Shown here one piece after another: positions 6,322-26,940 of a stretch of 64,000 bases of DNA; the first letter of the stretch is position 1; every line of letters starts with the position of its first letter. Location: NCBI RefSeq assembly GCF_004359965.1, contig NZ_SMRQ01000008.1:1-64000 (forward strand). The letters run 5' to 3'. The stretch comes from Cognatilysobacter segetis. GTDB taxonomy: Bacteria > Pseudomonadota > Gammaproteobacteria > Xanthomonadales > Xanthomonadaceae. The notes beneath the pieces were generated by a model. The model was not told the origin of the DNA. It did no database searches and was given only the letters and a program-made list of their open reading frames with translations. The position numbers and the translations under genes are program-made.

Positions 6322-6918
6322 TCACCGCGCGGTGGACTGGAATACCGCGTGCAGCTCGTTGTAGACGAACACGTCGCCCGCGCGCCGGAATGGAAACGGG
6401 AAGTAGAAGCTGCGGCGGATGGACCAGTGTTGGTCCTGCGCCCGGTCCAGCATCGCCGCATCGACGAACACCCGATGCGTCGAATCGATCTTGAACCCTG
6501 CGCGCCCCGGAACGATGACCAGGATCCGTTCGATCTTCAGGCGACGCGCCGCTTCGAGCAGCTGGCGCAACACATCGAGCGGCTCGTCGAGATGCTCCAG
6601 CACGTGGCTGATCACCATCGACCGCAAGCCCTCGTTGCCATCGAGCAGGGACAGGCTCCAACCGTCCTGGAAGCCGTCGTAGAAATCGACGGGCAACCCG
6701 TTCGAGCGGCAATACTCGACCGTCGCCTTGTTGTATTCGAGTCCGCGCGATCCCGCGGGCAGGTAACCGAGCAGTTCACCGACGCCGCAGCCGAAGTCGA
6801 GGGTCGGCCCCTCGACCTGCGCCGCGGCACGCTTCAGGTAGATCCGCCGCACATACTTGCGCAGCGCGCTCCGGTCGGCTTGATAGCGGGTGTAGTCCGA
6901 ATCGAATTCAGTCGCCAA
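6322..6918 (-). CDS. Class I SAM-dependent methyltransferase
   Basis: The protein has 198 aa from a TTG start. That start was chosen because a textbook AAGGAGG lies 6 bases upstream; an in-frame ATG at 6960 would add 14 basic residues and overlap the DUF2304 gene by 53 bases. Motif I is LDFGCGVGELLGYL, followed by a VISHVLEHLDEP-like motif II, typical of Methyltransf_11/23 enzymes in glycan clusters. The substrate is unknown, perhaps a lipid-linked or polymer sugar. It is the last gene of the minus-strand glycan train and its end converges on galE. Confidence 0.85.
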   Translation of the reverse strand: MATEFDSDYTRYQADRSALRKYVRRIYLKRAAAQVEGPTLDFGCGVGELLGYLPAGSRGLEYNKATVEYCRSNGLPVDFYDGFQDGWSLSLLDGNEGLRSMVISHVLEHLDEPLDVLRQLLEAARRLKIERILVIVPGRAGFKIDSTHRVFVDAAMLDRAQDQHWSIRRSFYFPFPFRRAGDVFVYNELHAVFQSTAR

Positions 6919-7282
6919 GGCCGCCTCCTTCCGTCGGGCGCGCCGTCGGAACTTCTTCACGATCCTTCGGCATGCGCACGGTCGACATCGAGATGTGGCG
7001 CGCGAGGTCGGTGATCGACTGATGCAACTCGCGCTGTTTCAGGGCGAGGTTGAGCAGCATCACGAAGCTCGTCGCGCTGTAGCAGTACAGCACGAGGTCG
7101 GCGCCGCGCGTGACCCCGGACATGCCCGCGATCCGGTCGGCGACCGCCGGAAACCAGACGAGGAACATGCCTGCCAGGCTGATGCCGATCAGCGAGAGCC
7201 CGACGAGTTTCGAGCGCCGCCATTCGCGCAGCCCGTAGGCGATGACGAGGAGACCGAACGCGGAAAGTAGATACCGGATCAC
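6908..7282 (-). CDS. DUF2304 small membrane protein
   Basis: The protein has 124 aa with three hydrophobic segments (start YLLSAFGLLVIAYGL, then LVGLSLIGISLAGMFLVW, then a region near LVLYCYSATSFVMLL), followed by a polar tail. Its GTG start overlaps the stop of the upstream GT2 gene (GTGA). DUF2304 proteins are often found beside GT2 polyprenyl-phosphate sugar synthases and may anchor them to the membrane. That role is inferred from the pairing, not proven by sequence. Confidence 0.85.
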   Translation of the reverse strand: MIRYLLSAFGLLVIAYGLREWRRSKLVGLSLIGISLAGMFLVWFPAVADRIAGMSGVTRGADLVLYCYSATSFVMLLNLALKQRELHQSITDLARHISMSTVRMPKDREEVPTARPTEGGGLGD

Positions 7283-7971
7283 TTGCGGATCCTCGCCAGA
7301 AGCAGGTCGAGCAGGATATTGAAGGCACCGAAACCCGATTGCCCCTTCGCCATGGAGTAGTCGGTGTAGCGGATGATCACCGGCGCCTCGACGTAGGTGA
7401 AGCCGTGGCGCGCGATCTCTTCCAGGATTTCGGAAGCGTGGGCCATCCGGTTCTGGCGGATGCGGATCGTCGCCGCCGCGTCCGACCGCAGTACGCGAAG
7501 CCCGTTGTGCGCGTCCGTCACCCGCAAACCGGTGGTGATCCGCGTGAACACCGTCGCGGCCTTCAACAGCAGGCGCCGGCTGGCGCGGATGTTTTCGGCG
7601 CTGCCGAGGAACCGGCTTCCGAGCGCCACCTGCGCACCCTGCTCGTGCAGGCGCCGCAGCATTTCGGCTGCGTCCTCCGGACGGTGCTGGCCGTCCGCGT
7701 CGAAGGTGACCACGTGATCGAAGCCCGCCCGGCAGGCCCACGCGATACCCGTCTGCAGCGCCGCGCCCTGTCCGAGGTTGATGGGATGAGTGAGGACCGT
7801 GGCGCCAGCGGCGAGCGCGCGTTCGCCCGTGTCGTCCCTCGATCCGTCGTCTACGACCACCACGTGCGGGAAAAGCCGCATCGCGTCCACGACGACGCCG
7901 TGGATCATCGCCGCTTCGTTGTACGCGGCAATTACGACAGCCGCTCGCTCGTTGAGTATCGACGCCGCCAT
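7279..7971 (-). CDS. GT2 glycosyltransferase, polyprenyl-phosphate sugar synthase-like
   Basis: The protein has 230 aa. It shows GT-A motifs VVIAAYNEA, VVVVDDGSRDDT, NLGQGAALQTG and the metal-binding FDADGQHRPED (DxD), then LGSRF, the pattern of the DPM1/ArnC-like GT2 branch. It likely loads a sugar from an NDP donor onto undecaprenyl phosphate at the inner leaflet. It has no long C-terminal membrane domain, and the overlapping DUF2304 gene may supply one. The ATG at 7971 was preferred because the extra upstream frame has no GT motif. Confidence 0.9.
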   Translation of the reverse strand: MAASILNERAAVVIAAYNEAAMIHGVVVDAMRLFPHVVVVDDGSRDDTGERALAAGATVLTHPINLGQGAALQTGIAWACRAGFDHVVTFDADGQHRPEDAAEMLRRLHEQGAQVALGSRFLGSAENIRASRRLLLKAATVFTRITTGLRVTDAHNGLRVLRSDAAATIRIRQNRMAHASEILEEIARHGFTYVEAPVIIRYTDYSMAKGQSGFGAFNILLDLLLARIRK

Positions 7972-8000
7972 GACCTCGCCTCCTCCACCGGCTCCAGGGC

Positions 8001-8372
8001 TCACTTCTGCGTTGCCACGAAAAGCACGCCCGTCGAGATCATCAGGATGCCCGCCCACTGCAGCGAGCTCAGCCGCTCGCCGTAGAAGTACCAGCCCGCG
8101 AACGCGGTGATGGTGTACACCATCGCTCCGCTGATCGCGAAGGACACGGCGAGCTTCTCGCGCGTCAGCACGAAGAACCAGGTGACGTAGCCGGCGACCT
8201 GCAGGACCAGCGCGAGCCAGACCAGCGGATTGAGCGCCGCGCCCAGCACGAAGTCCACGGGACCGTGCGCCAGCGCGACCTTCATGGCCGGCATGTTGAC
8301 CGCCTTCTTGAGGATCATCTGTGCCACCAGCGTGCACAGCGTGGTGGTCGCGATCAGAACGTAGGTCAGCAC
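8001..8372 (-). CDS. SMR/EamA-type four-helix transporter, ArnE/F-like flippase candidate
   Basis: The protein has 123 aa with four predicted helices (start LIATTTLCTLVAQMILKK; end WAGILMISTGVLFVA) and the GWYFYGERLS stretch typical of DMT-family single-domain transporters. Its size matches ArnE/ArnF, which flip lipid-linked aminoarabinose. Between two GT2 genes, a role in flipping a polyprenyl-phosphate sugar is the best inference. The GTG start shares one base with the stop of the upstream GT2 gene. A drug-efflux SMR role is less likely here. Confidence 0.82.
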   Translation of the reverse strand: MLTYVLIATTTLCTLVAQMILKKAVNMPAMKVALAHGPVDFVLGAALNPLVWLALVLQVAGYVTWFFVLTREKLAVSFAISGAMVYTITAFAGWYFYGERLSSLQWAGILMISTGVLFVATQK

Positions 8373-9214
8373 TAGATGTATCCCTGGTAGGAGCGTCGGT
8401 ACAGGCGACCGAGGAGGACGGCCACGGGTTCGGGCCACAGGGCCCGGAAGACCATCAGGTCCTCGCGCGCCCGACTGCCGTCGTCGAGGCATCGCGCGGT
8501 TTCGCTCGAGGTGTGTACGCGATGGTCCATCAGCTGCCCGGGCACGCGGGTCACGCGTCCGGCGGCCGACAGGTCGAGCCACGCCAGCCAGTCCATGTTC
8601 GTGCGCAGGTCTTCGCGGAAGCGGAATCCGGGAGCCACGGCCCGGTTGATGCTGACCGCGGGGCAGACCACGGGATTTCCGAACCCGAACAGCATGCGTC
8701 GCGCCAGCGGCCCGGCAATGGACCGCCGGCCCAGGAACGCCAAGGCCACCATCAGCCGTTTGACGCGCGCATTGGAGCCGGATGCACGACGCTCGCCGCT
8801 CTCGCTGATCTCGCCGGCGTCGCAGAAGTACATCGCGGACCCCGGCGCCCGCGAATGGGCATCGAGCAGCGCGGCAACGAAGCGGGCGTCGTAGACGTCG
8901 TCCTGGTGCGCGATCGTGACCAGCGGGGTCTCGGCGGCATCGAGCGCTGCATTCCAGTCCCGCCCGATCCCGCCATTGGGCCCGTGCACCACGAGGCGCG
9001 CGCCGAAGGCGCGGCAGGTCGCGTCCAGCCCGTCGAACGGCGTCGACGTGGCCACGACCACGCGCCCCGGCGCGGTCTGACCGGCCAGCGACTGCAGGCA
9101 GGCCTCGAGATGCGGCGATCGGCCGTATGCAGGCACGACGAAGGTATGTTGCGGGCCCGCGGCCGAAGCCGCACCCGCGGCGCGCCCGCCGGCTGCGCCG
9201 GATTCGCGGCTCAC
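8372..9214 (-). CDS. GT2 family glycosyltransferase
   Basis: The protein has 280 aa. The GT-A fold shows TFVVPAYGRSPHLEACLQSL near residue 20, GRDWNAALDAAETPLVTIAHQDDVY (metal-binding region with QDD instead of DxD) near residue 85, and a later NMDWLAWLDLS segment. It probably adds a sugar to a surface glycan intermediate. The GTG start overlaps the stop of the membrane protein gene upstream (GTGA), so translation is probably coupled. The acceptor and donor cannot be told from sequence. Confidence 0.85.
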   Translation of the reverse strand: MSRESGAAGGRAAGAASAAGPQHTFVVPAYGRSPHLEACLQSLAGQTAPGRVVVATSTPFDGLDATCRAFGARLVVHGPNGGIGRDWNAALDAAETPLVTIAHQDDVYDARFVAALLDAHSRAPGSAMYFCDAGEISESGERRASGSNARVKRLMVALAFLGRRSIAGPLARRMLFGFGNPVVCPAVSINRAVAPGFRFREDLRTNMDWLAWLDLSAAGRVTRVPGQLMDHRVHTSSETARCLDDGSRAREDLMVFRALWPEPVAVLLGRLYRRSYQGYI

Positions 9215-10656
9215 GGGCGCCGCCGTCCGAACGCCGGGCGGCCGCGTGCCGCGCCGAGCCACACGAGCCACAGCATCGAGACGAGGCAGACCGCCGGATA
9301 CAGATAGCGGAAGTCGCAGGCGATGGAGGTCGGTAGGTAGGACGCGTACAACAGCGCCGTTCCGATCGCCACCGGCACCGTGCCGCGCTTGAGTCGCGCA
9401 TGCATCGGCGAGAACAGGATCAGCAGCGTTACCAGCACGAGCGCGATCGCGTAGGCGAAGTGGCGGAAGATCGGCCAGTAGACGAGCCCGCGCGACGCGT
9501 CGTAGATCGACTGGTCGTAGCGGTCGAGTCCGGGCACGAAGCCCAGCCGGCTCAGCCGCGCATTGTCGCCGTCGATGCCGACGTGCACCGGCAGGCAGGC
9601 CTTGACGCCGTCGACGTCGAGAATGGACCGGAACACCGCGAGTCGATGGGCGGCGTACGCCTTCGGTTCCGCGCGCACCATCGCCCACCACATCTTCCGC
9701 ACGCCGCCGTAGCCCGGCAGCGACAGCCATTGGGTGACGGCCGGGCTGTACCACAGGAAGTCGCCGCGATCCGCGGAGTACACGCTGCGTACCTGCGCCC
9801 GGAGCTCGTCGTTCATGGCGATGGGCAGCCGGTCGCTCGGCGTCTGCGATCGCGCCACCATGCCGGCGATGTCGTACTGCATCAGGCCGTTGAAGCCGAC
9901 CTGGCTGCCGAAGCGGTCGTCCTGATGGATGGTGCGTGCCACCGCGGCATCGAAGACGACGAGACCGGCCCCGAACGCCAGCACGATCGACAGTGCTGCC
10001 GCCGCGGCACGGGATCGCGACAGGCCGCGCAGCGACGCAGCCCCCAGCATCGGCAGCACCAGCAGGACCGGTGCCATGAAGATGCCCTGCTGCCGCACCC
10101 GCATCGCGAACGCGAGCAGAAGCGCCGACGCCACGGCCCATGCGATCGCCGGGCGTCGCGCTGCGACGCAGGACATCAGGCCGGCGGCGACCCCTGCCGC
10201 GAGGAAGGTCGCGAACACCACGTCCTTCCAGACGATCCCGACGTAGATGCCGATGACCGGGTTCGCGATCACCAGGATCGCGGCCGCTGCGCGCATCACG
10301 ATACTGCGCGGCGAGCGCAGCGGTCCGGCGCGGAACGCCGCGACCGCCGAGAGCGCGAGCGCCAGGTACGTGCAGATGGCATTGAAGGCCATCAACCGGC
10401 CGACCCCGGCGGGACCGGGGCCGAACCAGCGCAGCAAGGCGCTCGTATGGGGCGGATTCCAGGTTTCCGACCGCCCCGTGCTGGCCTCGATCACCTGCAT
10501 GCTCGAGTCCATCGAGATGTGGCCGGGGTAGTGCAGCCAGATGGCGACGGCCGACAACACCGCTGCCAGCAGGATCATCACCATCGCGGGCCAGCGGGGT
10601 CCCTCGGCCACGACGTCGTGGCCGTCCCGCCAGGACGCCGATGCGGTGGGGTCCAC
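9211..10656 (-). CDS. Polytopic membrane protein, GT-C-like glycosyltransferase candidate
   Basis: The protein has 481 aa with about ten hydrophobic helices. Right after the first helix comes a periplasmic-side acidic motif (PGHISMDSSMQVIEA), and a WKD motif follows two helices later. This is the layout seen in GT-C enzymes that use lipid-phosphate sugars. A soluble segment of ~170 residues sits between the middle and last helices. The GTG start at 10656 has AGGAG 6 bases upstream. With the neighbouring GT2, flippase and DUF2304 genes it could be the acceptor transferase of a periplasmic glycosylation module. No family name could be assigned from memory. Confidence 0.75.
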   Translation of the reverse strand: MDPTASASWRDGHDVVAEGPRWPAMVMILLAAVLSAVAIWLHYPGHISMDSSMQVIEASTGRSETWNPPHTSALLRWFGPGPAGVGRLMAFNAICTYLALALSAVAAFRAGPLRSPRSIVMRAAAAILVIANPVIGIYVGIVWKDVVFATFLAAGVAAGLMSCVAARRPAIAWAVASALLLAFAMRVRQQGIFMAPVLLVLPMLGAASLRGLSRSRAAAAALSIVLAFGAGLVVFDAAVARTIHQDDRFGSQVGFNGLMQYDIAGMVARSQTPSDRLPIAMNDELRAQVRSVYSADRGDFLWYSPAVTQWLSLPGYGGVRKMWWAMVRAEPKAYAAHRLAVFRSILDVDGVKACLPVHVGIDGDNARLSRLGFVPGLDRYDQSIYDASRGLVYWPIFRHFAYAIALVLVTLLILFSPMHARLKRGTVPVAIGTALLYASYLPTSIACDFRYLYPAVCLVSMLWLVWLGAARGRPAFGRRRP

Positions 10657-10679
10657 GGAGCGCTCCTGGAGCCGGGTGA

Positions 10680-11270
10680 TCAGCGGATGCTGATCGACTG
10701 GTTCGTCGCGCAGGACACCTTCTTGTCGGTGCCGTTGTCGACGAAGTAGATCGCGTAGTCACCCGGGTCGACGTTGCTGAAGGCGACATCGGCCATGTAG
10801 CCGGACTTGTCGAATGCGGGCGTCTTGAAGAAGTCGGCGACATCCTGGCGCGGGCGGCCGGTCTCGACCGGCAGGCGGTAGCTCTTGATGCCGGAAAGCA
10901 CGATGTCGACCTTGGCGGGAACCGTGCCTGCGTCCTTGTTCACGGCGAAGCCGACGACGCGGTAGCTCTTGTCGCGCGTCGCCACGTAGCTGTTGGGCTT
11001 CGCGCCGGGGCTCGACTGGTTTTCGGGCACGGTCACGACGTTCTCGACCGAGCAGACGCCGCTGTTCAGCGACTGCGTGATGGCATCGACGGTCTCCTGC
11101 GCGGCCTCGAACTGCGCACCGGCCGGCAGCACCTTGGGCGCGGACGCGGGGTTGGCCGAGCTCGTCTGCGGCGCAGGCTGATCCATCTTTTCGCTGCAAC
11201 CGGCAGCGACGACGCAGAACGACACGAGGGCGAGAAAACGGGTGGCAAGCACGGCTCGACGGGGAATCAT
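10680..11270 (-). CDS. Lipoprotein of unknown function
   Basis: The protein has 196 aa. The N-terminus MIPRRAVLATRFLALV is a signal sequence ending in lipobox VAAGC, so a lipid-anchored product is likely. The mature part has a low-complexity Ala/Pro/Ser linker, then a compact domain with two Cys (SGVCSVEN and KKVSCATN). Homology could not be recognised. The ATG at 11270 has GGAG upstream (ggagattcccatg). It is separated from the upstream glycosyltransferase gene by about 280 bases (or by 114 bases if the frameshifted tail of that gene is real), so it may have its own promoter. Confidence 0.8.
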   Translation of the reverse strand: MIPRRAVLATRFLALVSFCVVAAGCSEKMDQPAPQTSSANPASAPKVLPAGAQFEAAQETVDAITQSLNSGVCSVENVVTVPENQSSPGAKPNSYVATRDKSYRVVGFAVNKDAGTVPAKVDIVLSGIKSYRLPVETGRPRQDVADFFKTPAFDKSGYMADVAFSNVDPGDYAIYFVDNGTDKKVSCATNQSISIR

Positions 11271-11384
11271 GGGAATCTCCGGACAGGGGAAGTCGGTGGC
11301 AAGGCGGGCGGCGAACCGCGGGACCGGCCGTTCAGGCGCGCCATAATCCCAGCAACGCGCCGGCAGGGGCAAGGTGAGGCGGGA

Positions 11385-11543
11385 TCAGACGATGGAATGC
11401 CCGGAGCGCCGACCGGTCAGGACGGCCCGCGCGACGCTGCGCCAGCCGCCTGCCCGGTAGAGGGACACGACGGCATCCATGCGCGCCCGGCGCGCGCGCG
11501 GGTCACGCAGGCACGCCAGCGCGACTCGCGCCAGCGCACGCAT
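11385..11543 (-). other. 52-codon open frame, candidate frameshifted C-terminal extension of the upstream glycosyltransferase
   Basis: The frame reads on the minus strand from an ATG at 11543 to TGA at 11385. It lies in the -1 frame relative to the glycosyltransferase and is open back to the A9 run at 11562-11570. The peptide is Arg/Ala-rich with SLYRAGGWRSVARAV near its end, resembling basic amphipathic tails of glycosyltransferases. The AGG directly touching the ATG is a poor ribosome site, so an independent gene is less likely than an extension. Confidence 0.5.
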
Positions 11544-12641: not shown

Positions 12642-14237
12642 CTACGCGAACGGAATCGTGGCCCGCTCGGCGAGCCGCATGATATCCGCGAGCGCCGCCT
12701 CCGCGGTGATGTCCGTCGTCACGGCACCTAAGGTATAGCGCGCGACGCGCTCGGCCGGCGCGCCGATCCCGAACACGACGAGCGGCATCTCCATCGCCAT
12801 GATCTCGTCGGTTACGAAGGAATACGTTTCCGGGCAGACGGACGGCATCAGGCACACGTCGACGCCGTATCGCTCGAGAAGCTCGGGAAGGTCATGCGGA
12901 ACGAACGCGCCGTGCACGTGCAGCGCCCGCGAGGCAGCCGCATTGGACTGCAGCGTGCCGAACACGACGATCCGCATCGGCAGTTGCCGCGCTTCGACGA
13001 GCGCGGCCAGTGCGTGCACCACGTCCGAGCCTTTCGCGCGGCTGATGTTGCCGATGACGCCCACGGTCACGACGTTGGACGCGACTCGCCGGACAGGCCG
13101 CAGATGGGAGAGGTCGGGGCGATGCGGACGCAGCTCGACCCGGAATAGGTGGGAGCGCTCCGGATAGGCCCGCGACAGGATATCGACCGACACCTGCGAA
13201 AACGCGACGATGCGATCGGCGGCCGTCAGGAGGTCCGCCCATCCCTCGCGCCACGCCCGGTTATCGGGCGGCGCGGGGAAGCCCAGCAGATTGGCGGCGT
13301 TGCGCGGCAGGCACGCGCGACACGCGTCCGGCGCGGGGACGCCGCAATAACGGCCGTCCGCGTCGATCAGCGTGAATGCGGGGCATACCGAGTGGAAATC
13401 GTGCAGGTAGAACACGAGTTCGCCGCCCGCCGCGCGACGATCCACGCACCACCGCACGATCGCGAGCGGATCGTCGAACGACACCAGGTTGTTCACTTCG
13501 ATCGTTGCGATGCGAAAGCGCGACAACTCGTGCAGCAACCGCTCGACGGTCGGCGCGCGCCGCTCGCGCGTCCGCCTGCCCGGGCGCATGAGCGACAGGA
13601 CGTAGTCCAGGCGCGCCACGTCCGGACTGACACGAAGCACCGCGCGGCCTTCCGCCAGCAGACTTTCGATGCGTGCGTCGCGGAACGCGTTTGCGCCCCC
13701 GCCCAGTGCGTGATCGAACACCACGGTGAGGGGCGTGCCGATCCAGCCGGCGAGATAGAACGCGACCGACTCGGCCATGCCGCGCACCGACGCCTGCGCG
13801 CGACGACCGACCGCGCGTGCGGCCGCCGCCAGGCCGATCTCCCGAAGCCGCGCAGGGATTCCACGCAGCCCGCGGCCGGGGCGGTCCTGCAGCGGAAGCG
13901 AGGTGACGGGGATGGCGAACTCGTGCATCCGGCCGTCCCGGAGTCGCGCGACGAAGCGCGCCGATCCGCCGAAGTCGACGGTGCCCGCCAGCGAGCCCAT
14001 GAGCATGAAGCCCGCATTTCCCGCATGCGCGACGTCCGGAAACACCGCGGCCACGTCGGCGCGCGTCGCACCTTCGACGCAGGCGATGCTCGCGACGCCC
14101 CCGTCGAGGAGCGGCAGCTCGAGCGCGGCGGTCGCGACGAGCGCATCGGTGTCGAGGAACCACCCCCAACCGAACACGCGTCCATTCCGTACGGTCAGCG
14201 CATCGATGGCGAGATGGCTAGTCACGTTCGACGCCAC
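12642..14237 (-). CDS. GT4-like glycosyltransferase with N-terminal extra domain
   Basis: The protein has 531 aa. The first ~110 residues form a beta-rich domain of unknown role (NGRVFGWGWFLDTDALV). A GT-B-like fold follows, with VVTVGVIGNISRAKGSDVV near residue 385 and a Cys-containing CRACLPRNAAN segment near 305. The late motif MPSVCPETYSFVTDEIMAM is the conserved ExxxxxxxE-type end of GT4 enzymes. Its start is uncertain: GTG at 14237 overlaps the upstream gene by 20 bases and GTG at 14225 by 8. It ends 20 bases before the next glycosyltransferase gene. Confidence 0.82.
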   Translation of the reverse strand: MASNVTSHLAIDALTVRNGRVFGWGWFLDTDALVATAALELPLLDGGVASIACVEGATRADVAAVFPDVAHAGNAGFMLMGSLAGTVDFGGSARFVARLRDGRMHEFAIPVTSLPLQDRPGRGLRGIPARLREIGLAAAARAVGRRAQASVRGMAESVAFYLAGWIGTPLTVVFDHALGGGANAFRDARIESLLAEGRAVLRVSPDVARLDYVLSLMRPGRRTRERRAPTVERLLHELSRFRIATIEVNNLVSFDDPLAIVRWCVDRRAAGGELVFYLHDFHSVCPAFTLIDADGRYCGVPAPDACRACLPRNAANLLGFPAPPDNRAWREGWADLLTAADRIVAFSQVSVDILSRAYPERSHLFRVELRPHRPDLSHLRPVRRVASNVVTVGVIGNISRAKGSDVVHALAALVEARQLPMRIVVFGTLQSNAAASRALHVHGAFVPHDLPELLERYGVDVCLMPSVCPETYSFVTDEIMAMEMPLVVFGIGAPAERVARYTLGAVTTDITAEAALADIMRLAERATIPFA

Positions 14238-18769: not shown

Positions 18770-19343
18770 CGCTTCCCCCGCCGATCCGATAGAAGAACAC
18801 CACGGTCAGTGAGAACGTGCGGTTCTCGCGGTTCAGCACGCTCGACTGCTCGATCACCGCGAGCCGCGACGAGGACTCGATCGCCTGCATCAGCTGCACC
18901 ACCTGCGCGGGGTCCGCCGCGCCCGACAGGACGACGGGCACCCGCCAGAGTCCGTGATTCCCCTCGACTTCCGCCGGCGGCTGCGTCGCGATCTGCACCT
19001 GTCCGCCGACGGCGGCGGCCCGGTCGCGTGCCCAGGCCTGCACCTCGGCCTCGGCGATGCCCGCCGTCGCGGCATGGCCGATCTGGGCCTGCAGGCCCTT
19101 GCGCAGGCGCGCCGCCGACTGAGCGCGTTCGAGCCACTCGGGCTGCCGCGCGAGCGCACGCAGGGAGCGCATTTCGGCAACCCGTTCGGCGTAATCCGAT
19201 GCCAGCCGACCGCGCAGGTCGATCAACGCGAGCAGCAGGTAGGCAGCCAGCAGCATCGCGATCAGCACGGCAGCGATGCCGAGGCGCGGATTCGACCGGA
19301 ACTGCCGCGCGATATCGTCGACGATACGTGGAACCGTTCTCAA
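18756..19343 (-). CDS. gspM: Type II secretion protein GspM
   Basis: The protein has 195 aa with a short cytoplasmic N-terminus, one membrane helix (IAAVLIAMLLAAYLLLALI, near residue 30), then a coiled-coil and a ferredoxin-like periplasmic domain. This is the GspM layout. Its partner GspL is encoded just upstream. The TTG start at 19343 overlaps the gspL stop (TTGA). No other start gives a correct N-terminus. Confidence 0.85.
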   Translation of the reverse strand: MRTVPRIVDDIARQFRSNPRLGIAAVLIAMLLAAYLLLALIDLRGRLASDYAERVAEMRSLRALARQPEWLERAQSAARLRKGLQAQIGHAATAGIAEAEVQAWARDRAAAVGGQVQIATQPPAEVEGNHGLWRVPVVLSGAADPAQVVQLMQAIESSSRLAVIEQSSVLNRENRTFSLTVVFFYRIGGGSDVAP

Positions 19344-20410: not shown

Positions 20411-21413
20411 CGTTGGGAAGCGCAAATTCGTAATCCTCGCGCCAGGGCCGACCGCCCCGGTCGAACGGAGTCAGCGTCCAGTGCAGCACACGGGTGGCCC
20501 CTCCCCTGGGCGACGAAAGCGCCAAGGTGCCGGAGTCCATAGGATACAGGGACAGTAGACCTTCATCGCCGAGCGCGGCCCCGAGGACCTGGTACACCGA
20601 GGTCATGGAGGTGAAGGGCCTGAGCCTGCGGGCGTCGACGATGCGTTGGGCCATCGCGGCGTCGATGCCGGGAATGGACCGGAGGACTTCGGCGGACGCG
20701 GTGTTGGCATTGATCGAGGCGGACCGGACCGTCGTCAGCGTGCGCACCAGGTCGGCGTCGCTGATCCGCGCCAGCGCGAGGTCCCAGCCCATCACGCGCC
20801 GCAGCTCGAGCGGCGTCACAAGGGGCCGGTTCGTGGGCGGGCGACGCCGTTGCGACGCGTAGCCGTCCTGCTCCGCACTGTTGAGCCGGTAGAGATCGTC
20901 GGGATCCTGATAGTCGGCCAGCAGATTGGCGAGCCTCACGGCGGCGGCGGCCTCCGGCTTTCCGGTGGAATCCAGGTAACGCTCGATCGAAGACGCCGGC
21001 ACCCAGTTGACGGGCAGCCGGCCGCGGTCGTCCTGCAGGGCGAAGCGGACCTCGCCCGACCCGGCGTACAGACTGCCGTCCAGCGTGATCTCGTTGCCGA
21101 CCGGCATCAGCGACAGCGCACCCGCGTCATCGCCTGCCCCCGCCGCGACGCGCTCGTCTTCGCTGAGCGCCACCCGGCTGTCGACGGTGAGTCCGCCGAA
21201 GGTGCGGCGCTGGGTGAGCAGCAGGTAGGTGACGGACGCGCGCGTGTCGGCCATGTCCAACGCATCGAGCATCGCCTGCTGGCGATCGCTTTCCTCGTCC
21301 CGCAACCGCTGCACGGTCACCGCAACGCCCGACGCGAGCAGCGACAGGATGACCAGGATCCCCAGCACGAGGACGAGGATGAATCCGCCCTGGGACGAAC
21401 GCCCGCGACTCAT
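20334..21413 (-). CDS. gspK: Type II secretion minor pseudopilin GspK
   Basis: The protein has 359 aa, the size expected for the largest minor pseudopilin. The prepilin peptidase site is SQGG/FILVLVLGILVILSL near residue 10, and Glu at +5 of the pilin consensus is absent as is usual in GspK. The long globular domain includes SINANTASAEVLRSIPGID, a GspK helix-hairpin-helix-like repeat. It caps the pseudopilus tip with GspI and GspJ. The ATG overlaps the gspJ stop (ATGA). Confidence 0.92.
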   Translation of the reverse strand: MSRGRSSQGGFILVLVLGILVILSLLASGVAVTVQRLRDEESDRQQAMLDALDMADTRASVTYLLLTQRRTFGGLTVDSRVALSEDERVAAGAGDDAGALSLMPVGNEITLDGSLYAGSGEVRFALQDDRGRLPVNWVPASSIERYLDSTGKPEAAAAVRLANLLADYQDPDDLYRLNSAEQDGYASQRRRPPTNRPLVTPLELRRVMGWDLALARISDADLVRTLTTVRSASINANTASAEVLRSIPGIDAAMAQRIVDARRLRPFTSMTSVYQVLGAALGDEGLLSLYPMDSGTLALSSPRGGATRVLHWTLTPFDRGGRPWREDYEFALPNDDRAAEGVVRASPATIFARPEASPP

Positions 21414-21973
21414 TCGCGTTCCATCTCGAACACGTCCTTGCGCGGCTCGAGCGGCCCGAGCACCGAAGCGAGCTCGACCTGGCCATCGCGCAGCAGCGCG
21501 ACGGACGCCGGCAGCGGTGTCTGCGCCCCGAGCGCCGGAGGCCATTGCCGGGACGTCTCGCCGTTCGCGGCGTAGTACAGGAAGCCGGGCGCTTCGGCCG
21601 CCTCGATCGGCGCCGACCAGCGCACCTGCCCGTCCTCGGAATATTCGAGCGCCCACCGATCGCCGTCGCGTTTGAAGGCCCACTCGACGTCGGCCGGTGC
21701 ACCCGGCGTTCCGAACAGGGGATTCAGCGTGGTCGCCACCAGCCGTTCCGTGGTTCCCCGCAGCGGCGCGCCATCGACGGCCACCAGCCCGTGGATGCTG
21801 TCGGTGAACCACGCCTGCACCAGCGCGCGACGGTCGATGCCCGCGGCCTGCGCGGCCACGCGCTCGCGAGCGATGCGGTACGTGCCGAGCATCTGGAAAA
21901 GTGCAGCGGTCGTCAGGGAGACGATCACCAGCACCACCAGGGTCTCCATGAGCGTGAAACCCCGCGGGCGCAT
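21410..21973 (-). CDS. gspJ: Type II secretion minor pseudopilin GspJ
   Basis: The protein has 187 aa. The class 3 signal is MRPRG/FTLMETLVVLVIVSL with Glu at mature position 5. The rest is a beta-rich globular domain, as expected for GspJ. It forms the GspI-J-K tip complex of the pseudopilus. The ATG shares a base with the gspI stop (TGATG). Confidence 0.92.
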   Translation of the reverse strand: MRPRGFTLMETLVVLVIVSLTTAALFQMLGTYRIARERVAAQAAGIDRRALVQAWFTDSIHGLVAVDGAPLRGTTERLVATTLNPLFGTPGAPADVEWAFKRDGDRWALEYSEDGQVRWSAPIEAAEAPGFLYYAANGETSRQWPPALGAQTPLPASVALLRDGQVELASVLGPLEPRKDVFEMERE

Positions 21974-22398
21974 CAGAGATCGTCGTCCGGGTTGCCACCG
22001 ACGTCGCGGTACCCCACCTGGCGCACGTCGAATGCGTCGACCTCACGCCCTTCTCTGAGCACCCGCACGTGCAGCTGGTACAGGCCGACCAGGAACGGGG
22101 TGGCCACGCCGACCTGCGTCACCGCGCGCCGCGGCGGCGCGACAGCCCGTGCAGCCCATTCGATGCGCAGGTCGCCGGCTGCGCGGCTGCCCGTGGCGTC
22201 CTGCATCGGATTCACCCGCCTGACCGCGTCCAGGGCGGCCGTCATGAGGGCCGAGCGTTCGCGACTTGCCTGCACCCGTTCCAGAGCCTGGATGTTGGTC
22301 GCGAGCCATCCATACAGGGCCACCGCGCCGAGGCTGAAGATCACCAGTGCGACGATGGCCTCCAGCAGGGTGAAGCCCGCCGAGCGAGACCGGCTCAC
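21973..22398 (-). CDS. gspI: Type II secretion minor pseudopilin GspI
   Basis: The protein has 141 aa from a GTG start that overlaps the gspH stop (GTGA). The prepilin site is RSAG/FTLLEAIVALVIFSL with Glu5. GspI is the core of the tip complex with GspJ and GspK. Start choice follows the usual short basic leader of prepilins; a longer frame exists upstream but overlaps gspH. Confidence 0.9.
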   Translation of the reverse strand: MSRSRSAGFTLLEAIVALVIFSLGAVALYGWLATNIQALERVQASRERSALMTAALDAVRRVNPMQDATGSRAAGDLRIEWAARAVAPPRRAVTQVGVATPFLVGLYQLHVRVLREGREVDAFDVRQVGYRDVGGNPDDDL

Positions 22399-22793
22399 TG
22401 CGCCACCTCGGTGTCGCAGAACGGCGCGGCCGCACGGATCGTCCACTCGCGGGCGCCGCGACGCAGAACGACGTCACCGCCTTCGCAGTAGCCGTTGCCC
22501 TGGACGCTCCACGGTTTCGGCACGGACACCGCCCACTCGTCGTCGAGCTCGAACGGGAGCCGAGTGCCATCGGCTCCCAGCGCGATGCTGCGCCCCGACG
22601 TGCGAGCGCGCATCGGAAGCCCCTGGACCTGGTCGCGCAGTCGGTCGACCGTGTCGCGCGATCGCCAGCTCTCGATGCCGTTGAGCAGGCTCGGCGCCGC
22701 CAGCGCGGCCGCCAGGCCCATGATCGTCAGCACGACCACGAGCTCCAGCAGCGTGAAGCCGGACGCGCTAGCGGGACGGCAGGCGGCCGACAT
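22395..22793 (-). CDS. gspH: Type II secretion minor pseudopilin GspH
   Basis: The protein has 132 aa. The prepilin signal is RPASASG/FTLLELVVVLTIMGL with Glu5, followed by a GspH-type globular domain with two Cys near the C-terminus (GYCEGGD and PFCDTE). It lies at the pseudopilus between the GspG shaft and the tip. Its ATG at 22793 overlaps the end of gspG by 26 bases; an in-frame ATG at 22799 is an alternative. Confidence 0.9.
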   Translation of the reverse strand: MSAACRPASASGFTLLELVVVLTIMGLAAALAAPSLLNGIESWRSRDTVDRLRDQVQGLPMRARTSGRSIALGADGTRLPFELDDEWAVSVPKPWSVQGNGYCEGGDVVLRRGAREWTIRAAAPFCDTEVAQ

Positions 22794-23211
22794 CGGCATC
22801 GTTGCCCTCGCCGCCCGGCTTGCCGTCGGCGCCGTACGACCACAGCGCGAAGGGCTGCGTGCCGCTCGCCGTCGGCTCGTACTGGTAGGCATTGCCCCAC
22901 GGATCCTCGGGCAGGCCTTCCTCGAGGTAGGGGCCGGCCCACCGCTTCGCGGCCTTGGGATCCGCGGGACGCTCGGCCAGGATGCCGAGTCCTTCCTCCT
23001 TGGTCGGCAGCCTGCCCAGGTCGAGACGCAGCGTCTGCACCGCACCGCCGAGCATCTTGACCTGCGTGTTCGCGGTCTGGACCTTCGCCTTCTCCGCCTG
23101 GCCGAACAGGCGGGGCCCGACGAGGCCCATGATCAGGCCGATGATGACCAGCACCACGATCATCTCCAGCAGGGTGAAACCGGACTGGCGGTTGGTTCGC
23201 ATCACTTTCAT
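22768..23211 (-). CDS. gspG: Type II secretion major pseudopilin GspG
   Basis: The protein has 147 aa. The prepilin site is NRQSG/FTLLEMIVVLVIIGL. The conserved GspG C-terminal half includes LPTKEEGLGIL, WAGPYLEE and DPWGNAYQYE, with calcium-site-like GADGKPGGEGNDAD at its end. It builds the pseudopilus shaft that drives substrates through GspD. The ATG at 23211 (MKVMRTNR) gives a normal length leader. Confidence 0.96.
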   Translation of the reverse strand: MKVMRTNRQSGFTLLEMIVVLVIIGLIMGLVGPRLFGQAEKAKVQTANTQVKMLGGAVQTLRLDLGRLPTKEEGLGILAERPADPKAAKRWAGPYLEEGLPEDPWGNAYQYEPTASGTQPFALWSYGADGKPGGEGNDADVGRLPSR

Positions 23212-23221
23212 TGAAGCCTCA

Positions 23222-24421
23222 TCAGATGGCGAGATCGTTGGCGCTGGTGATCGCGAGGATGACACCGAGGATGATCGTGCCGATCACGGAGCCGATCACC
23301 AGAATCGCGGCGGGTTCCATCAGGATCAGGACCCGCTTCATCCGGCTGCGCCCTGACTCCTCGTAAAGCTTCGCGAGCGACCCGAGCATCGCCGCCAGGC
23401 GGCCGGAGCGCTCGCCGACCCGCACCAGGTTGTATGCGGTCGCGGTCATTACCTCGTGGTCTTCGAGCGCATCGGCGAGGCCGCTGCCGCCGCGTACCGC
23501 GCGTGCCACTTCGTCGAAGTGGGCGCGGCGCGACGGGATCGCCACGCCACCCCGCGCGAGCTCGAGCGCGCGCAGCAGGGGAACACGGTTGCCCAGCAGC
23601 GCCGCGAGTACCTTGGCCCAGCGCGCGGTGTCGGACTCGACGATCCACGGCCCGATGATCGGCAGTCGCGCAGCGCCTTCCAGCGCGCGCTCCCGTACGC
23701 CCGGGTTGCGGAAGGCCACGACGGCGCCGCCGATCACCGCCGCCAGGCCGCCCAGCGCGAGAACGAAATGGCTGCGGAACCAGACGCCGGTGCCGAGAAC
23801 GGCCCACGCCAGGAACGGGAGATCGTCCGCACGCTTGAGCAGCGTGGCGAACTTGGGGACCACGAAAACGAACATGATCGAAACCGCGAGCGCGCCGGCA
23901 GCGACGAGCACCGCGGGATAGATCATGGCGTTGCGCATCTCGGCGCGGAGGCGGTGCTCGTAGTCCATCTGCGCCGCGGCGTCCGCAAGCGCGCGGCCGA
24001 GTTCGCCGGTCATCTCGCCGGCCTTGGCCAGCTGTCCCACGTAAGTCGGCATGGGCAGGCCGCTGCCGACCAGCGCGGTCGAAAACGCCTGGCCCCGCTG
24101 CAGTTCGCGCGAGATGACGGCGAATGCTTCACGCACGCGCGGGTGCGCGGAGGAGAGCGACTGCGACTGGACCGATTCCGCGATCGCCACGCCGGACAGG
24201 AGCATCGTCGACAGTTCCTGCAGGGCAAGCATCACGTCGGCATGGCCGAGCGATCGCTGGCGCGCAAGGCGCCCCTTGGCGACGCCCTCCTCATCGACCG
24301 TGACGACCGTCAGGCCGCGGCGCTCGAGCTGGCGTGCCGCCGCGCGATCGCTGGGTGCGCGCAGCACCCCTTCGATGGGCCGTCCCTCGGTGTTGATCGC
24401 CTGGTAAGCGAAACGCCTCAC
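23222..24421 (-). CDS. gspF: Type II secretion inner-membrane platform protein GspF
   Basis: The protein has 399 aa. The first ~60 residues carry a cytoplasmic GspF N-terminal domain (FAYQAINTEGRPIEGVLRA). Two tandem GspF domains with three membrane helices follow (near residues 165, 215 and 370), with a GERSGRLAAML repeat motif. It is the platform on which GspE works. It starts with GTG at 24421, one base after the gspE stop codon. Confidence 0.95.
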   Translation of the reverse strand: MRRFAYQAINTEGRPIEGVLRAPSDRAAARQLERRGLTVVTVDEEGVAKGRLARQRSLGHADVMLALQELSTMLLSGVAIAESVQSQSLSSAHPRVREAFAVISRELQRGQAFSTALVGSGLPMPTYVGQLAKAGEMTGELGRALADAAAQMDYEHRLRAEMRNAMIYPAVLVAAGALAVSIMFVFVVPKFATLLKRADDLPFLAWAVLGTGVWFRSHFVLALGGLAAVIGGAVVAFRNPGVRERALEGAARLPIIGPWIVESDTARWAKVLAALLGNRVPLLRALELARGGVAIPSRRAHFDEVARAVRGGSGLADALEDHEVMTATAYNLVRVGERSGRLAAMLGSLAKLYEESGRSRMKRVLILMEPAAILVIGSVIGTIILGVILAITSANDLAI

Positions 24422-24422
24422 G

Positions 24423-26114
24423 TCAGGTACCCGTCACCCGAAGCACTTCCTCGAAGGTGGTCTGCCCGCGCCAGGCCTTGAGGAGCCCGTCCTCGCGCAG
24501 CGAACGATGACCCTGCGACCGGGCGAGCGCCTTCATTTCATTGACGCTCGCGCGCCGCACGATGAGGTCCTGCATCGGCTCCGTGACCGGAATCATCTCG
24601 TAGATGCCCAGGCGGCCGCGGTAGCCCGTGCCCATGCAGGCCGGGCAACCGACGGCCTCGCGCCAGTCGGCGGCTTGGCCGGGCAGCACGCGCGCGGCGA
24701 TCGGCCCGGCCTCGTGCTCGAGGGTGCGCGCGACGGCAGCCGGGCGCGAGCAGGCCGGGCACAGCCGGCGCACGAGCCGCTGCGCCTGGACGGCCCGGAC
24801 AGGCGTCGCCACGAGGAACGGCTCCACGCCCATGTCGATCAAGCGCGTGAACGCGCTGATCGCATCGTTCGTATGCAGCGTCGACAGCACCAGGTGGCCG
24901 GTGAGCGCGGCCTGGACGGCGATCTCGGCCGTTTCGAGGTCGCGGATTTCGCCGATCATGATGACGTCGGGGTCCTGGCGCAGGATCGACCGCAGCGCAT
25001 TGGCGAAGCTGAGGCCGATGTCCGAATGCGCCTGGACCTGCGTGATGCCGGGAATCTGGAACTCGACCGGATCCTCGACGGTGATGATCTTCTTGAGCCC
25101 GTCGTTCGCCGCGGCGAGCGCGCCGTAGAGCGTCGTCGACTTGCCCGAGCCGGTCGGACCGGTGACCAGCACGATGCCGTGCGCCTCCGACGTCCAGTCC
25201 CGCATCATCGCCAGGTGGTCCTGCTCGAAGCCCAGGCGCTCGAGTTCGAGCTCGCGCCGTTCCTTGGGGAGCAGACGCATGACGATCGATTCGCCATGCA
25301 CCCCCGGCAATGCCGACATTCGGACGTCCATCTCCTGGCCGCCGACACGGGCGGACAACCGTCCGTCCTGCGGAAGCCGCCGCTCGGCGATGTCCATGCC
25401 GGAGATCAGCTTGAGCCGCGAGGCCACGGCGTCGTAGCGCTGGCGCGGCAGGTTGAGCCGCGTGTGCAGTACGCCGTCGATGCGGAACCGAACCGCGAAC
25501 TCATGCTCCTGCGGCTCGAGATGGATGTCGGACGAGCGTTGCTCGACGGCCTGCGCGAGCAGGTTGTTGACCAGCTCGACGACCGGCGCCTCCTCGGCCA
25601 TCTCCCGGAGGTGGTCGACGTCGGTGCCGGACGGCGTCTCGGCGGCCGACCGCGCGAGCGCATCGAGGAGGCGGTCGAGGTCCTGCGCGCGGCACAGCGC
25701 CATGCGGACCGCGCGGCCGGGAAAGGCATGGCGCAAGGCGTCGCCCAGGGCGGGATGAAGCGGATCGCGGGCCGTGCACCAGAGTTCGCCGGCGTCGTCG
25801 CTCCACAGCAGGACCTGCTGGTCCAGGGACCAATCCAGGCCGGGCGGAGCGAGCGCGGCGGTGGCGCGCACCAGCGCGATGTCGGGGAGCGGCACGTCCT
25901 GGCCGACGACCGGCATGCCGAGTTGCGCTGCCAGCACCTGCAGGAGGTTGTCCTCGCTCACCGCACCCAGGCGCGTCAGCACGTTGCCGAGCCGACCGCC
26001 CAGCTGGTCCTGCACCGCCAGCGCGCGTTCGATGTCGGCCTCGGCGGCGAGCTGGCGTTCGAGGAGCAACTCGCCCAGTCGACGCAGCGAAGGCTCGGCG
26101 AGATCAGAGGACAT
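24423..26114 (-). CDS. gspE: Type II secretion ATPase GspE
   Basis: The protein has 563 aa. The N-terminal MshEN-like domain holds LGELLLERQ. It then shows Walker A GPTGSGKST (near residue 320), an Asp box, Walker B-like MIGEIRDLETA, and the zinc-binding Cys4 pair RLCPACSRP (near 450) and VGCPACMG (near 490). It is the cytoplasmic ATPase that powers pseudopilus assembly. Its ATG overlaps the end of the Wzm-like permease gene by 11 bases, tying the T2SS to the glycan exporter. Confidence 0.96.
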   Translation of the reverse strand: MSSDLAEPSLRRLGELLLERQLAAEADIERALAVQDQLGGRLGNVLTRLGAVSEDNLLQVLAAQLGMPVVGQDVPLPDIALVRATAALAPPGLDWSLDQQVLLWSDDAGELWCTARDPLHPALGDALRHAFPGRAVRMALCRAQDLDRLLDALARSAAETPSGTDVDHLREMAEEAPVVELVNNLLAQAVEQRSSDIHLEPQEHEFAVRFRIDGVLHTRLNLPRQRYDAVASRLKLISGMDIAERRLPQDGRLSARVGGQEMDVRMSALPGVHGESIVMRLLPKERRELELERLGFEQDHLAMMRDWTSEAHGIVLVTGPTGSGKSTTLYGALAAANDGLKKIITVEDPVEFQIPGITQVQAHSDIGLSFANALRSILRQDPDVIMIGEIRDLETAEIAVQAALTGHLVLSTLHTNDAISAFTRLIDMGVEPFLVATPVRAVQAQRLVRRLCPACSRPAAVARTLEHEAGPIAARVLPGQAADWREAVGCPACMGTGYRGRLGIYEMIPVTEPMQDLIVRRASVNEMKALARSQGHRSLREDGLLKAWRGQTTFEEVLRVTGT

Positions 26115-26940
26115 CCGCGAATCCGGTTCTCAACAGGTGGAACACGCGCCGCCCCGCGAAGAACAGCGCGAACGATGCAAGCGTATAGAGCGACAGCATG
26201 CCCCAATCGGGCCACGCATGTTCGAACAGCACCCGACGCGCCTGCTCGATGGGCACCGTCACGGGATTCAGGAGGAGCCAGCCTTGCAGCGCGGCGGGCA
26301 TGGCGCTGCGCGGATAAAAGACCGGCCCCAGGAACATCAGCATCATGAGCAACGGGCCGACCGCTTGCGCGAGGTCGCGGACGTAAACGCCGAGCGCCGC
26401 CAGGATCCAGACCAGGCCGAGCACCGCGGGGACGAGGGGAAGGACCACGAGCGGAAAGGCGAGCTGTGTCAGCGACAGCCCGCCGCCCCAGATCGCGTTC
26501 ACCAGAACGAGGAGCACCAGGCCCACCGCGGTGTGGAACGCGGCCGTCAGCACATCGACCCAGCCCAGCACTTCCAGCGGAAACACGACCTTCGTCACGT
26601 AATTGGGCTGGGAGACGACGACCAGCGGTGCCCGGGCCACCGCTTCGGCGAGAAAGCCGTGCAGCAGCATGCCCGTGAGCAACCGAAGGGCGAACCCCGC
26701 CATGCCGCCTTCGTGCGGTGCCGTCGGCCACCGGGCCGGGAGGACCACGCCGAAGACGAGCGTGTAGACCCCCAGCATCAGCAAGGGGGTGGCCACCGCC
26801 CAGAAGTAGCCCAGCAGCGATCCCCGGTAGCGCCCCGCGAGCTCGCGCCGGGTCAGCACCATCACGAGTTGGCGGTCCCGCCAGAAGCCCGGACGGGCCA
26901 TGCGTGGCGGGGCTTCCGGTACGGCCGTGGAGCTGGTCAA
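26104..26940 (-). CDS. ABC-2 type polysaccharide/O-antigen exporter permease (Wzm-like)
   Basis: The protein has 278 aa from a TTG start at 26940 with AGGA upstream. ATG 26901 (MARPGFWRD) is an alternative. It has six hydrophobic helices and the family opening VLTRRELAGRYRGSLLGYFWA. The late segment PVFYPRSAMPAALQGWLLLNPVT is typical of O-antigen permeases. It pairs with the Wzt-like ATPase encoded at 30608, beyond the surface protein gene and on the opposite strand. It is the first gene of the train that runs into gspE, so a promoter should lie in 26941-27060. Confidence 0.88.
   Translation of the reverse strand: MTSSTAVPEAPPRMARPGFWRDRQLVMVLTRRELAGRYRGSLLGYFWAVATPLLMLGVYTLVFGVVLPARWPTAPHEGGMAGFALRLLTGMLLHGFLAEAVARAPLVVVSQPNYVTKVVFPLEVLGWVDVLTAAFHTAVGLVLLVLVNAIWGGGLSLTQLAFPLVVLPLVPAVLGLVWILAALGVYVRDLAQAVGPLLMMLMFLGPVFYPRSAMPAALQGWLLLNPVTVPIEQARRVLFEHAWPDWGMLSLYTLASFALFFAGRRVFHLLRTGFADVL

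Follow-up and report, generated by a model that had tools for sequence, protein, structure and literature searches.

A candidate S-layer locus with its own type II secretion system and an O-antigen exporter in Cognatilysobacter segetis

What does a complete protein secretion machine do inside a cluster of glycan-export genes? The question is raised by a 64,000-nt stretch of DNA of Cognatilysobacter segetis (contig NZ_SMRQ01000008.1 of assembly GCF_004359965.1, positions 1-64,000 of the forward strand), which was analysed as a whole and is called the window here.

A complete type II secretion system among glycan genes

Searches with Pfam and NCBIfam profiles identified a complete type II secretion system (T2SS) in the order E-F-G-H-I-J-K-L-M-C-D, lying between metB and etfA amid glycan genes:

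24423-26114, minus strand: gspE, ATPase with an MshEN / c-di-GMP-binding N-terminal domain (NF053729, 51.2 bits, over the cut-off; TIGR02533, 562.8 bits, below the cut-off of 630)
23222-24421, minus strand: gspF (PF00482)
22768-23211, minus strand: gspG, major pseudopilin (TIGR01710, over the cut-off)
22395-22793, minus strand: gspH, minor pseudopilin (Pfam/NCBIfam)
21973-22398, minus strand: gspI, minor pseudopilin (N_methyl and position)
21410-21973, minus strand: gspJ, minor pseudopilin (N_methyl and position)
20334-21413, minus strand: gspK (T2SSK, T2SSK_1st)
19340-20410, minus strand: gspL (position and conservation only; 0 Pfam or NCBIfam matches)
18756-19343, minus strand: gspM (T2SSM_b, E 0.001, just under the cut-off)
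18251-18769, minus strand: gspC, earlier labelled gspN (Pfam T2SSC in relatives, PDB, AlphaFold, Foldseek, VIA)
16056-18254, minus strand: gspD, divergent secretin (Secretin; TIGR02517, 315.6 bits, below the cut-off of 351)

The set comprises a secretin (D), an ATPase (E), a platform (F, L and M, with GspL assigned by position and conservation), pseudopilins (G to K) and a connector (C). The original prediction had called the connector gene gspN, a label that proved wrong. Pfam T2SSC matches 14 of the 26 family members at E <= 1 (best 3.5e-6), with no match in the window copy itself, and the PDB sequences matched by the product are GspC (7e-4) and OutC (4e-3). Its AlphaFold model has one transmembrane helix and a six-stranded domain; PulC-HR and GspC-HR are the top Foldseek matches, at E values of only 0.07-0.1, and VIA gave a Z of 9.6 against GspC-HR (3oss_C).

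Another T2SS-like set is found elsewhere in the genome, with E and F paired on contig C91 and a G and a D on contig C21. The contigs are unjoined, but we treat these genes as a single xps-like set, which makes the window T2SS the second of the genome. The two GspE proteins are 46% identical and the two GspD proteins 25%. The one prepilin peptidase of the genome lies outside the window, on contig C79, which also carries a GspE/PilB-like ATPase and a GspF-like protein.

The T2SS is surrounded by the following exporter and glycan genes:

26104-26940, minus strand (start at 26901 or 26940): wzm, ABC-2 permease of the O-antigen exporter (PF01061, ABC2_membrane, 76.7 bits)
30608-31882, plus strand: wzt, ABC ATPase with a Wzt C-terminal domain (PF00005, PF14524)
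28819-30566, plus strand: ATP-grasp-like protein (weak match only) and methyltransferase, between slp (see below) and wzt (Pfam)
14218-16059, minus strand: sulfotransferase-like N-terminal part and coiled coil (PF13469, E 4.5e-4, below the cut-off, in the first 393 residues; no Pfam match for the whole protein)
12642-14225, minus strand: glycosyltransferase of the Glyco_trans_1_4 type (PF13692)
6322-11372, minus strand: further O-antigen genes, namely GT2-type transferases, DUF2304 and a methyltransferase (Pfam; starts rough, some frames without a Pfam match)

The exporter is split, with wzt on the plus strand beyond slp and away from wzm, and the cluster is limited by etfBA (plus strand) at the end of the train and by metB-cbs at the other side. 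Two frames considered as minus-strand glycan genes (3478-5172 and 5136-6461) were discarded, having no Pfam match and facing etfBA, which occupies the plus strand there up to 5307. The profile matches thus bear out the predicted train of a Wzm-like permease, a T2SS and then sulfotransferase and glycosyltransferase genes.

The junctions, computed with gene starts picked by eye, likewise agree with the overlaps of 1-77 bases (ATGA, GTGA or TTGA) that had been described. The overlap is 11 bases at wzm/gspE; gspE/F and gspF/G are separated by 1 and 10 bases; the following overlaps are G/H 26, H/I 4, I/J 1, J/K 4, K/L 77, L/M 4, M/gspC 14 and gspC/D 4 bases; gspD overlaps the sulfotransferase gene by 4 bases, and the latter overlaps the glycosyltransferase gene by 8, after which a gap of 70 bases follows. 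Short overlaps alone are ordinary in compact bacterial operons.

A divergent gene for a candidate S-layer protein

The original prediction also spoke of a surface protein fused to the T2SS and the exporter. The gene in question, slp, is a separate unit, divergent from wzm, with its own ribosome site and its own terminator, and as a member of the minus-strand train it was rejected on the grounds of its orientation and terminator:

27283-28767, plus strand: slp, candidate S-layer protein, 494 aa, acidic, secreted (AlphaFold, codon usage, family alignments)
28354-28698, plus strand: D3, conserved C-terminal domain of Slp, residues 358-472 (family alignment)
28786-28811, plus strand: intrinsic terminator directly 3' of slp (hairpin and T run)

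Slp has a signal peptide, assumed to be cleaved after residue 24, a mature mass of about 48.2 kDa and a pI of 4.2, and its size resembles that of known S-layer proteins. Its gene shows the strongest codon bias among the 29 window genes tested, with the lowest ENC, 26.3, rpsI being next with 26.4; among the relatives, slp has the lowest ENC of the compared locus genes in 15 of 21, other genes being lower in the remaining 6. We call the terminator from its conservation, because a terminator scan found one where shuffles expect 1.2 by chance: a comparable hairpin and T run follows slp in 20 of the 20 cases tested (Lysobacterales, Rhodanobacter and other gammaproteobacteria). The Nitrincola terminator is weak, and Pseudomonas jinjuensis has none within only 60 bases examined after slp. 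A promoter scan found no sigma-70-like site.

The AlphaFold model (pLDDT 86.9) consists of three beta-sandwich domains. In fold searches the matches were all to generic Ig-like domains, as in adhesins, pilins, cohesins and integrins, and the VIA list barely covered residues past 359. Slp matched neither PDB sequences nor plasmids, and full-length Slp and 23 relatives gave no S-layer family match in Pfam at E 0.1.

The three domains are unequally conserved, with a mean pairwise identity of 0.44 for D3 against 0.26 for D1 and 0.28 for D2. Over all the loci gathered, D3 occurs once in 49 ORFs and four times in 18 distinct ORFs; none had more than four copies. The 18 belong to a smaller number of ortholog groups, and the final eight of them come from places where D3 matches were already known. 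In one distant protein (from G327) D3 was scored as two copies, three by eye. Slp proteins carry a single D3, and the four-copy proteins are large, of protease, ice-binding, leucine-rich and BNR types. The Slr4 family (PF19526) matches 3 of 23 isolated D3 domains (best E 0.0025) and 0 of 24 full-length Slp proteins. A class-wide search for D3 matched 2 of 369 genomes, the own genome included.

We consider it probable that the locus encodes an S-layer protein together with a T2SS dedicated to it and an O-antigen exporter, the exported glycan serving to hold the layer. One could also read Slp as an abundant secreted or fibrillar adhesin or matrix protein, a T2SS cargo that forms no crystalline layer, as its three Ig-like sandwiches resemble adhesins and pilins and copies of its C-terminal domain are found in large multidomain proteins. 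Such a reading is unlikely, however, since a mass of about 48 kDa, a pI of 4.2, extreme codon bias and a strong own terminator, with the precedents of Aeromonas, NpdA and Slr4, fit an S-layer better.

If Slp is an S-layer protein, one might tentatively speculate that D3 occupies a four-fold position in a tetragonal surface layer, or else binds the glycan anchor, and that four tandem copies form a single-chain 'pseudo-tetramer' tail, letting large protease, ice-binding, leucine-rich or BNR-repeat proteins, exported by the same T2SS, dock into the layer or anchor like it. The known layers of the S-layer/T2SS kind are tetragonal (PMC7821379, PMC3110197, PMC4483657, in the parts available). We found no publication on such docking in the literature covered, which lies outside subscription journals. 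Were the four-copy tail a docking module, it would provide a general means of presenting enzymes on the protein surface layers of Gram-negative bacteria.

Co-occurrence and linkage of slp and the secretion system

Among 297 family genomes, slp was matched in 26, the window-type GspE clade in 26 and both in 25 (Fisher p 4e-34, uncorrected for kinship). One of the 25 (G110) matches only through four-copy D3 proteins and has no single-copy slp. The single cases are G007, a 72% complete genome in which the locus lies at the end of a contig, and G018, in which slp and wzm are accompanied by no more of the T2SS than an E fragment, M, C and D. One retrieved stretch contains both slp and gspE in 21 of the 25 genomes, and slp and the T2SS are kept together through rearrangement, though wzm-E-F may diverge from G to D. 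The named relatives are Lysobacter xinjiangensis, L. ruishenii, Luteimonas, Thermomonas, Pseudoxanthomonas and Stenotrophomonas nitritireducens; a Rhodanobacter MAG has slp and the T2SS only. Tight linkage is not needed, because the slp-like and T2SS genes are dispersed in four genomes of genus g5 and G110 lacks a single-copy slp.

In the GspE tree, the slp clade (support 98) is separate from a sister clade (support 99). The tree was built quickly, leaves 27 forks open and has long outgroup branches, and it was used for the clade separation only. It covers 97 of 118 rows; the 21 left out are 17 rows whose genome another row already represents (L125, L127, L129 and the G-handle duplicates of named loci), the far outliers L197 and L198, the partial L119 (G281) and L054 (G279), a sole copy. 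G281 and G279 were assigned to clades by GspE identity (62% and 76%) and context. None of the 18 genomes carrying the T2SS of the sister clade has slp, or a wzm next to that T2SS.

That the window T2SS is a general second system for degradative enzymes, which landed in an O-antigen hot spot with slp as a passenger, seems very unlikely given the co-occurrence in 25 of 26 genomes, a linkage that persists through rearrangement and the separate xps-like T2SS already in the genome, even if the sister clade occupies the same chromosomal place, by cbs, in 14 of its 18 genomes without slp. O-antigen loci are integration hot spots, which we also counted in favour of this explanation. The idea of a machine dedicated to a surface protein or glycan is well supported for the protein, the T2SS clade and slp co-occurring almost one to one and side by side in many genera; for glycan as T2SS cargo there is no support, as T2SSs export folded proteins and nothing shows the passage of glycan.

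Beyond the family, the Slp profile matches secreted proteins beside related T2SSs in Nitrincola tapanii (98.5%), G629 (97.5%) and Pseudomonas jinjuensis (97.2%), against 0.2% for a gspD control; the corresponding protein of locus L213 gave no match (15.6%). In a class-wide GspE search (E <= 1e-140), 9 of 369 genomes were matched, among them that of C. segetis itself; within this sample the module is therefore uncommon beyond the family. The other eight comprise three with gspE alone, two with a T2SS without slp or wzm, one with wzt and a slp-like protein, one with a secreted protein without a profile match (L213) and one with another T2SS.

The wzm-gspE adjacency, for which a search across family genomes had been proposed, was found in 23 of 26, with wzm at most 400 bases upstream of gspE (distances from alignment ends); the genes overlap in 13 and lie 50-90 bases apart in 7. 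Elsewhere wzm is relocated (G231, G750 and Luteimonas deserti L141), and in Lysobacter spongiicola L128 it is absent from the stretch examined. In g5 and G715 the pair persists without the other T2SS genes beside it, and wzm is also directly upstream of gspE in P. jinjuensis, P. schmalbachii and Cellvibrio mixtus. All this would agree with a real physical or dosage coupling, compatible with an S-layer, in which wzm and gspE are co-translated so that protein and glycan anchor arrive together. We find such coupling rather doubtful, as the gaps of 50-90 bases, the moved or missing wzm and the fact that inheritance alone could keep the pair all count against it. The predicted physical coupling of secretion with polysaccharide assembly thus stands as regards gene position and the wzm/gspE overlap, and no further.

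A model of the locus

Under the S-layer interpretation, slp would be transcribed alone and at a high level up to its own terminator, with wzm and the T2SS forming a divergent operon. Slp would cross the inner membrane by means of its signal peptide and fold in the periplasm, and the adjacent T2SS would push it through the outer membrane, this T2SS being separate from the general xps-like one and probably sharing with it only the prepilin peptidase. Wzm and Wzt would export an O-antigen made by the surrounding glycosyltransferases, and Slp would assemble into a lattice held on the cell by this O-antigen, as in Aeromonas.

S-layers are accordingly predicted in Lysobacter, Luteimonas, Thermomonas, Pseudoxanthomonas and Stenotrophomonas nitritireducens, within the Lysobacteraceae. 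Of these, the publications available name only 'Lysobacter species', in the npdA-carrier table of PMC10765051, and beyond that table we found no publication on this locus in Lysobacteraceae in the literature covered, subscription journals being outside it.

Comparison with known systems

The window T2SS has the same gene order as the Xanthomonas Xps system, E-F-G-H-I-J-K-L-M-C-D, in which the former N is now recognised as GspC (PMC11981180). It differs in belonging to a distinct clade, whereas Xps serves extracellular enzymes, as judged by protease activity (PMC11981180).

NpdA of Delftia/Paracidovorax and other genera is a secreted S-layer protein of about 52 kDa encoded beside a cluster of 12 gsp genes, with orthologues tabled for 'Lysobacter species', Rhodanobacter and Nitrincola (PMC10765051). 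The listed carrier genera also yielded slp homologues here, the likeness being one of description; unlike in the window, O-antigen transport genes are unmentioned at npdA in the available part of that source. Slr4 of Pseudoalteromonas tunicata has a Sec signal peptide and an adjacent T2SS, and forms an S-layer with p4 symmetry (PMC7821379). Slp shares the signal peptide and the neighbouring T2SS, but the Slr4 profile matches few D3 domains, weakly, and no full-length Slp.

The closest parallel is the A-layer loci of Aeromonas, where an S-layer gene and a T2SS of the same gene order lie beside wzm in an ABC-type O-antigen cluster, so that the arrangement, at first thought unfamiliar, already had a precedent. 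The published accounts, as available, give wzm-sps genes-vapA-wzt for A. salmonicida and, for A. hydrophila AH-1, a truncated wzm, spsE F G H I J K L M, orf2, spsD and vapA, then a complete wzm and wzt (PMC4483657, PMC4413209). The likeness, judged from gene order and protein sizes, extends to most components: E, F, G, H, I, J, K, M, orf2 and D have 551, 399, 144, 123, 139, 201, 340, 198, 166 and 743 aa in AH-1, against 563, 399, 147, 132, 141, 187, 359, 195, 172 and 732 aa in the window, where GspC occupies the place of orf2. GspL has 356 aa, against 252 in AH-1 and 371 in A450. In the window, too, the candidate layer-protein gene adjoins a T2SS distinct from the general one and lies between wzm and wzt, in an O-antigen cluster between metB and etfA; unlike in Aeromonas, where the layer gene is downstream of spsD, slp diverges from wzm. 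The Aeromonas plan of a layer protein, a private T2SS and an O-antigen exporter together would thus recur in another order, which makes the coordination of O-antigen and layer export testable in environmental strains.

Gene content of the secretion train

Pfam and NCBIfam profile matches bear out the minus-strand T2SS train of the original prediction, naming gspE, F, G, H, K and D, with M just under the cut-off; gspI and gspJ were recognised by their pseudopilin motifs, and gspL was assigned by position and conservation. The predicted junction overlaps of 1-77 bases were also reproduced, with gene starts chosen by eye. The gene that had been called gspN is gspC instead, as judged from a family profile, a PDB profile search and a comparison of AlphaFold folds. 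Fourteen of the 26 members of this family match Pfam T2SSC at E <= 1 (best 3.5e-6), the window copy itself having no T2SSC match, and the family profile retrieves GspC (7e-4) and OutC (4e-3) from the PDB. The AlphaFold model (pLDDT 78.6) consists of one transmembrane helix and a six-stranded domain; Foldseek ranks PulC-HR and GspC-HR at the top, yet only at E 0.07-0.1, and VIA-align gives GspC-HR (3oss_C, Z 9.6, 2.0 A, 62 residues), with the related PilP domains next. Xanthomonas XpsN has likewise been renamed, and is given as XpsC in PMC11981180. The N-terminal domain of the window GspE (24423-26114) is of the c-di-GMP-binding MshEN type (NF053729, 51.2 bits), by virtue of which the putative layer-export ATPase may respond to c-di-GMP.

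Chromosomal setting and the second T2SS

The cluster sits at the site classically occupied by O-antigen genes in Xanthomonas, between two flanks:
34368-37010, metB-cbs, one flank of the cluster
up to 5307, plus strand, etfBA, the opposite flank

The exporter genes are split, wzm being inside the train and wzt on the opposite strand (30608-31882), with slp, the candidate S-layer protein gene (27283-28767), between them. The genome has another T2SS, with E and F on contig C91 and G and D on C21, two contigs that are not joined and were counted as one xps-like set; identity to these counterparts is 46% for the window GspE and 25% for GspD. A single prepilin peptidase, on the same contig (C79) as a PilB-like ATPase, must serve all systems. 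Elsewhere in the window, the C-terminal half of a 795-codon frame (37674-40061) is a PilT/PilU-type ATPase; since in relatives its N-terminal ~400 codons give a match of their own, the frame is either two genes or a fusion.

The candidate layer protein

The slp product has a signal peptide, with cleavage assumed after residue 24, and a mature form of 48.2 kDa, pI 4.2 and four cysteines. Of the 29 window genes tested, slp has the strongest codon bias (ENC 26.3; rpsI 26.4); across 21 related loci, it has the lowest ENC of the genes compared in 15. The gene is followed by:
28786-28811, terminator 3' of slp, 11-pair stem and T run (1.2 such sites expected by the scan in shuffled sequence)

A strong terminator is found 3' of slp in all 20 Lysobacterales, Rhodanobacter or other gammaproteobacterial relatives tested, out of 22 tested in all; that of Nitrincola is weak, and Pseudomonas jinjuensis has none within the 60 bases examined. 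The AlphaFold model (pLDDT 86.9) shows three beta-sandwich domains, whose structural matches are generic Ig-like folds. One Lysobacteraceae MAG locus (L138) carries three tandem slp paralogues. In Lysobacter spongiicola (L128 / L050) the slp sequence runs across two different reading frames, and the fetched stretch contains neither wzm nor wzt; this strain may have lost the layer, or a sequencing error may explain the split.

Co-occurrence of slp and the T2SS

Among 297 family genomes, slp was matched in 26 and GspE in 44 (E <= 1e-150). The GspE tree divides these 44 into a slp-bearing clade (26) and a sister clade (18), two genomes being placed by identity and context rather than by the tree, and slp occurs in none of the 18. 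A slp match and a slp-clade GspE are found together in 25 genomes, slp alone in 1, GspE alone in 1 and neither in 270; one of the 25 (G110) matches solely through proteins with four copies of D3, the C-terminal domain of slp. For 21 of these 25 genomes a single fetched stretch contains both genes; the remaining four are genus g5. The sister-clade T2SS (L102-L119), which has no adjacent wzm, adjoins cbs, and hence occupies the same chromosomal place, in 14 of 18. In a larger draw, D3 was present in 33 of 395 genomes, including seven further slp genomes: gspE or a T2SS adjoins slp in five, and the contig ends after slp in two. Gene order differs between groups and gene content is kept. In one genome (G018, locus L052) the T2SS is down to a gspE fragment, M, C and D, with slp, wzm and wzt retained, an apparent decay of the dedicated machine.

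Named relatives among the best 80 matches (79 loci) come from, among others, Lysobacter, Luteimonas, Thermomonas, Pseudoxanthomonas, Stenotrophomonas nitritireducens and a Rhodanobacter MAG. Further secreted proteins match the slp profile after gspD in P. jinjuensis (97.2%) and Nitrincola tapanii (98.5%) and beside gspD in genome G629 (97.5%); that of locus L213 does not (15.6%), and gspD, as a control, gave 0.2%.

The original prediction also held that protein secretion is coupled to glycan export, which stands for gene position only, the wzm-gspE pairing being conserved though not universal. In 23 of the 26 slp-clade genomes a wzm lies no more than 400 bases upstream of gspE, against none of the 18 sister-clade genomes; wzm also precedes gspE in P. 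jinjuensis, P. schmalbachii and Cellvibrio mixtus. In genus g5 the pair persists with gspF kilobases from gspE, and the stretches fetched showed none of the other gsp genes. Such conserved pairing fits co-regulation. By eye, the genes that separate gspE from gspF in g5 resemble a tgt-yajC-secDF run; an adjacent wzm-gspE pair is kept in L096-L099 and L268, with the remaining T2SS genes not next to it.

The D3 domain

D3 (residues 358-472) is the best conserved part of mature slp (mean pairwise identity 0.44 vs 0.26 and 0.28). Over all loci, one copy occurs in 49 ORFs, counted as distinct by their last 150 residues and some of them cut or split, and four copies in 18; a distant protein in G327 has two copies as scored and three by eye. 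The four-copy proteins are encoded in six family genomes (G004, G056, G084, G110, G049, G715) and in two MAGs (L157, L174), where they adjoin a related T2SS. The copies are C-terminal in 17 of 18 and near the N-terminus in L262. The remaining parts were scanned in six of the 18: they match reprolysin-like proteases with Calx-beta, leucine-rich repeats, ice-binding-like, BNR and passenger repeats, except in a single protein that gives no match. The four-copy proteins of L218, L221, L260-L267, L157, L174 and others are large and secreted-looking, with the copies in tandem. The natural reading of the four copies is a docking or anchoring tail, whose copy number may stem from either four-fold symmetry or simple avidity.

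Comparison with known layer systems

Our analysis establishes the genes, the second T2SS, their linkage, the expression signals in the sequence and the predicted fold. We propose that slp would form a surface layer, that the adjacent second T2SS would export it, and that O-antigen exported via wzm/wzt would hold the layer. In the O-antigen cluster of Aeromonas salmonicida A450, as described in PMC4483657 and PMC4413209, a T2SS and vapA lie between complete wzm and wzt; the A. hydrophila AH-1 order is truncated wzm - spsE F G H I J K L M orf2 spsD vapA - complete wzm - wzt, and the A-layer is a tetragonal, LPS-tethered array of a 49-kDa protein (PMC4483657, PMC4413209). The genes for the layer proteins NpdA (PMC10765051) and Slr4 (PMC7821379) are likewise reported to adjoin T2SS clusters. 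Because these loci place a layer protein gene beside a T2SS, as the window does with its candidate slp, and VapA and NpdA are set beside slp by locus plan, the window locus probably works as they do, and would be an S-layer locus of an already known kind.
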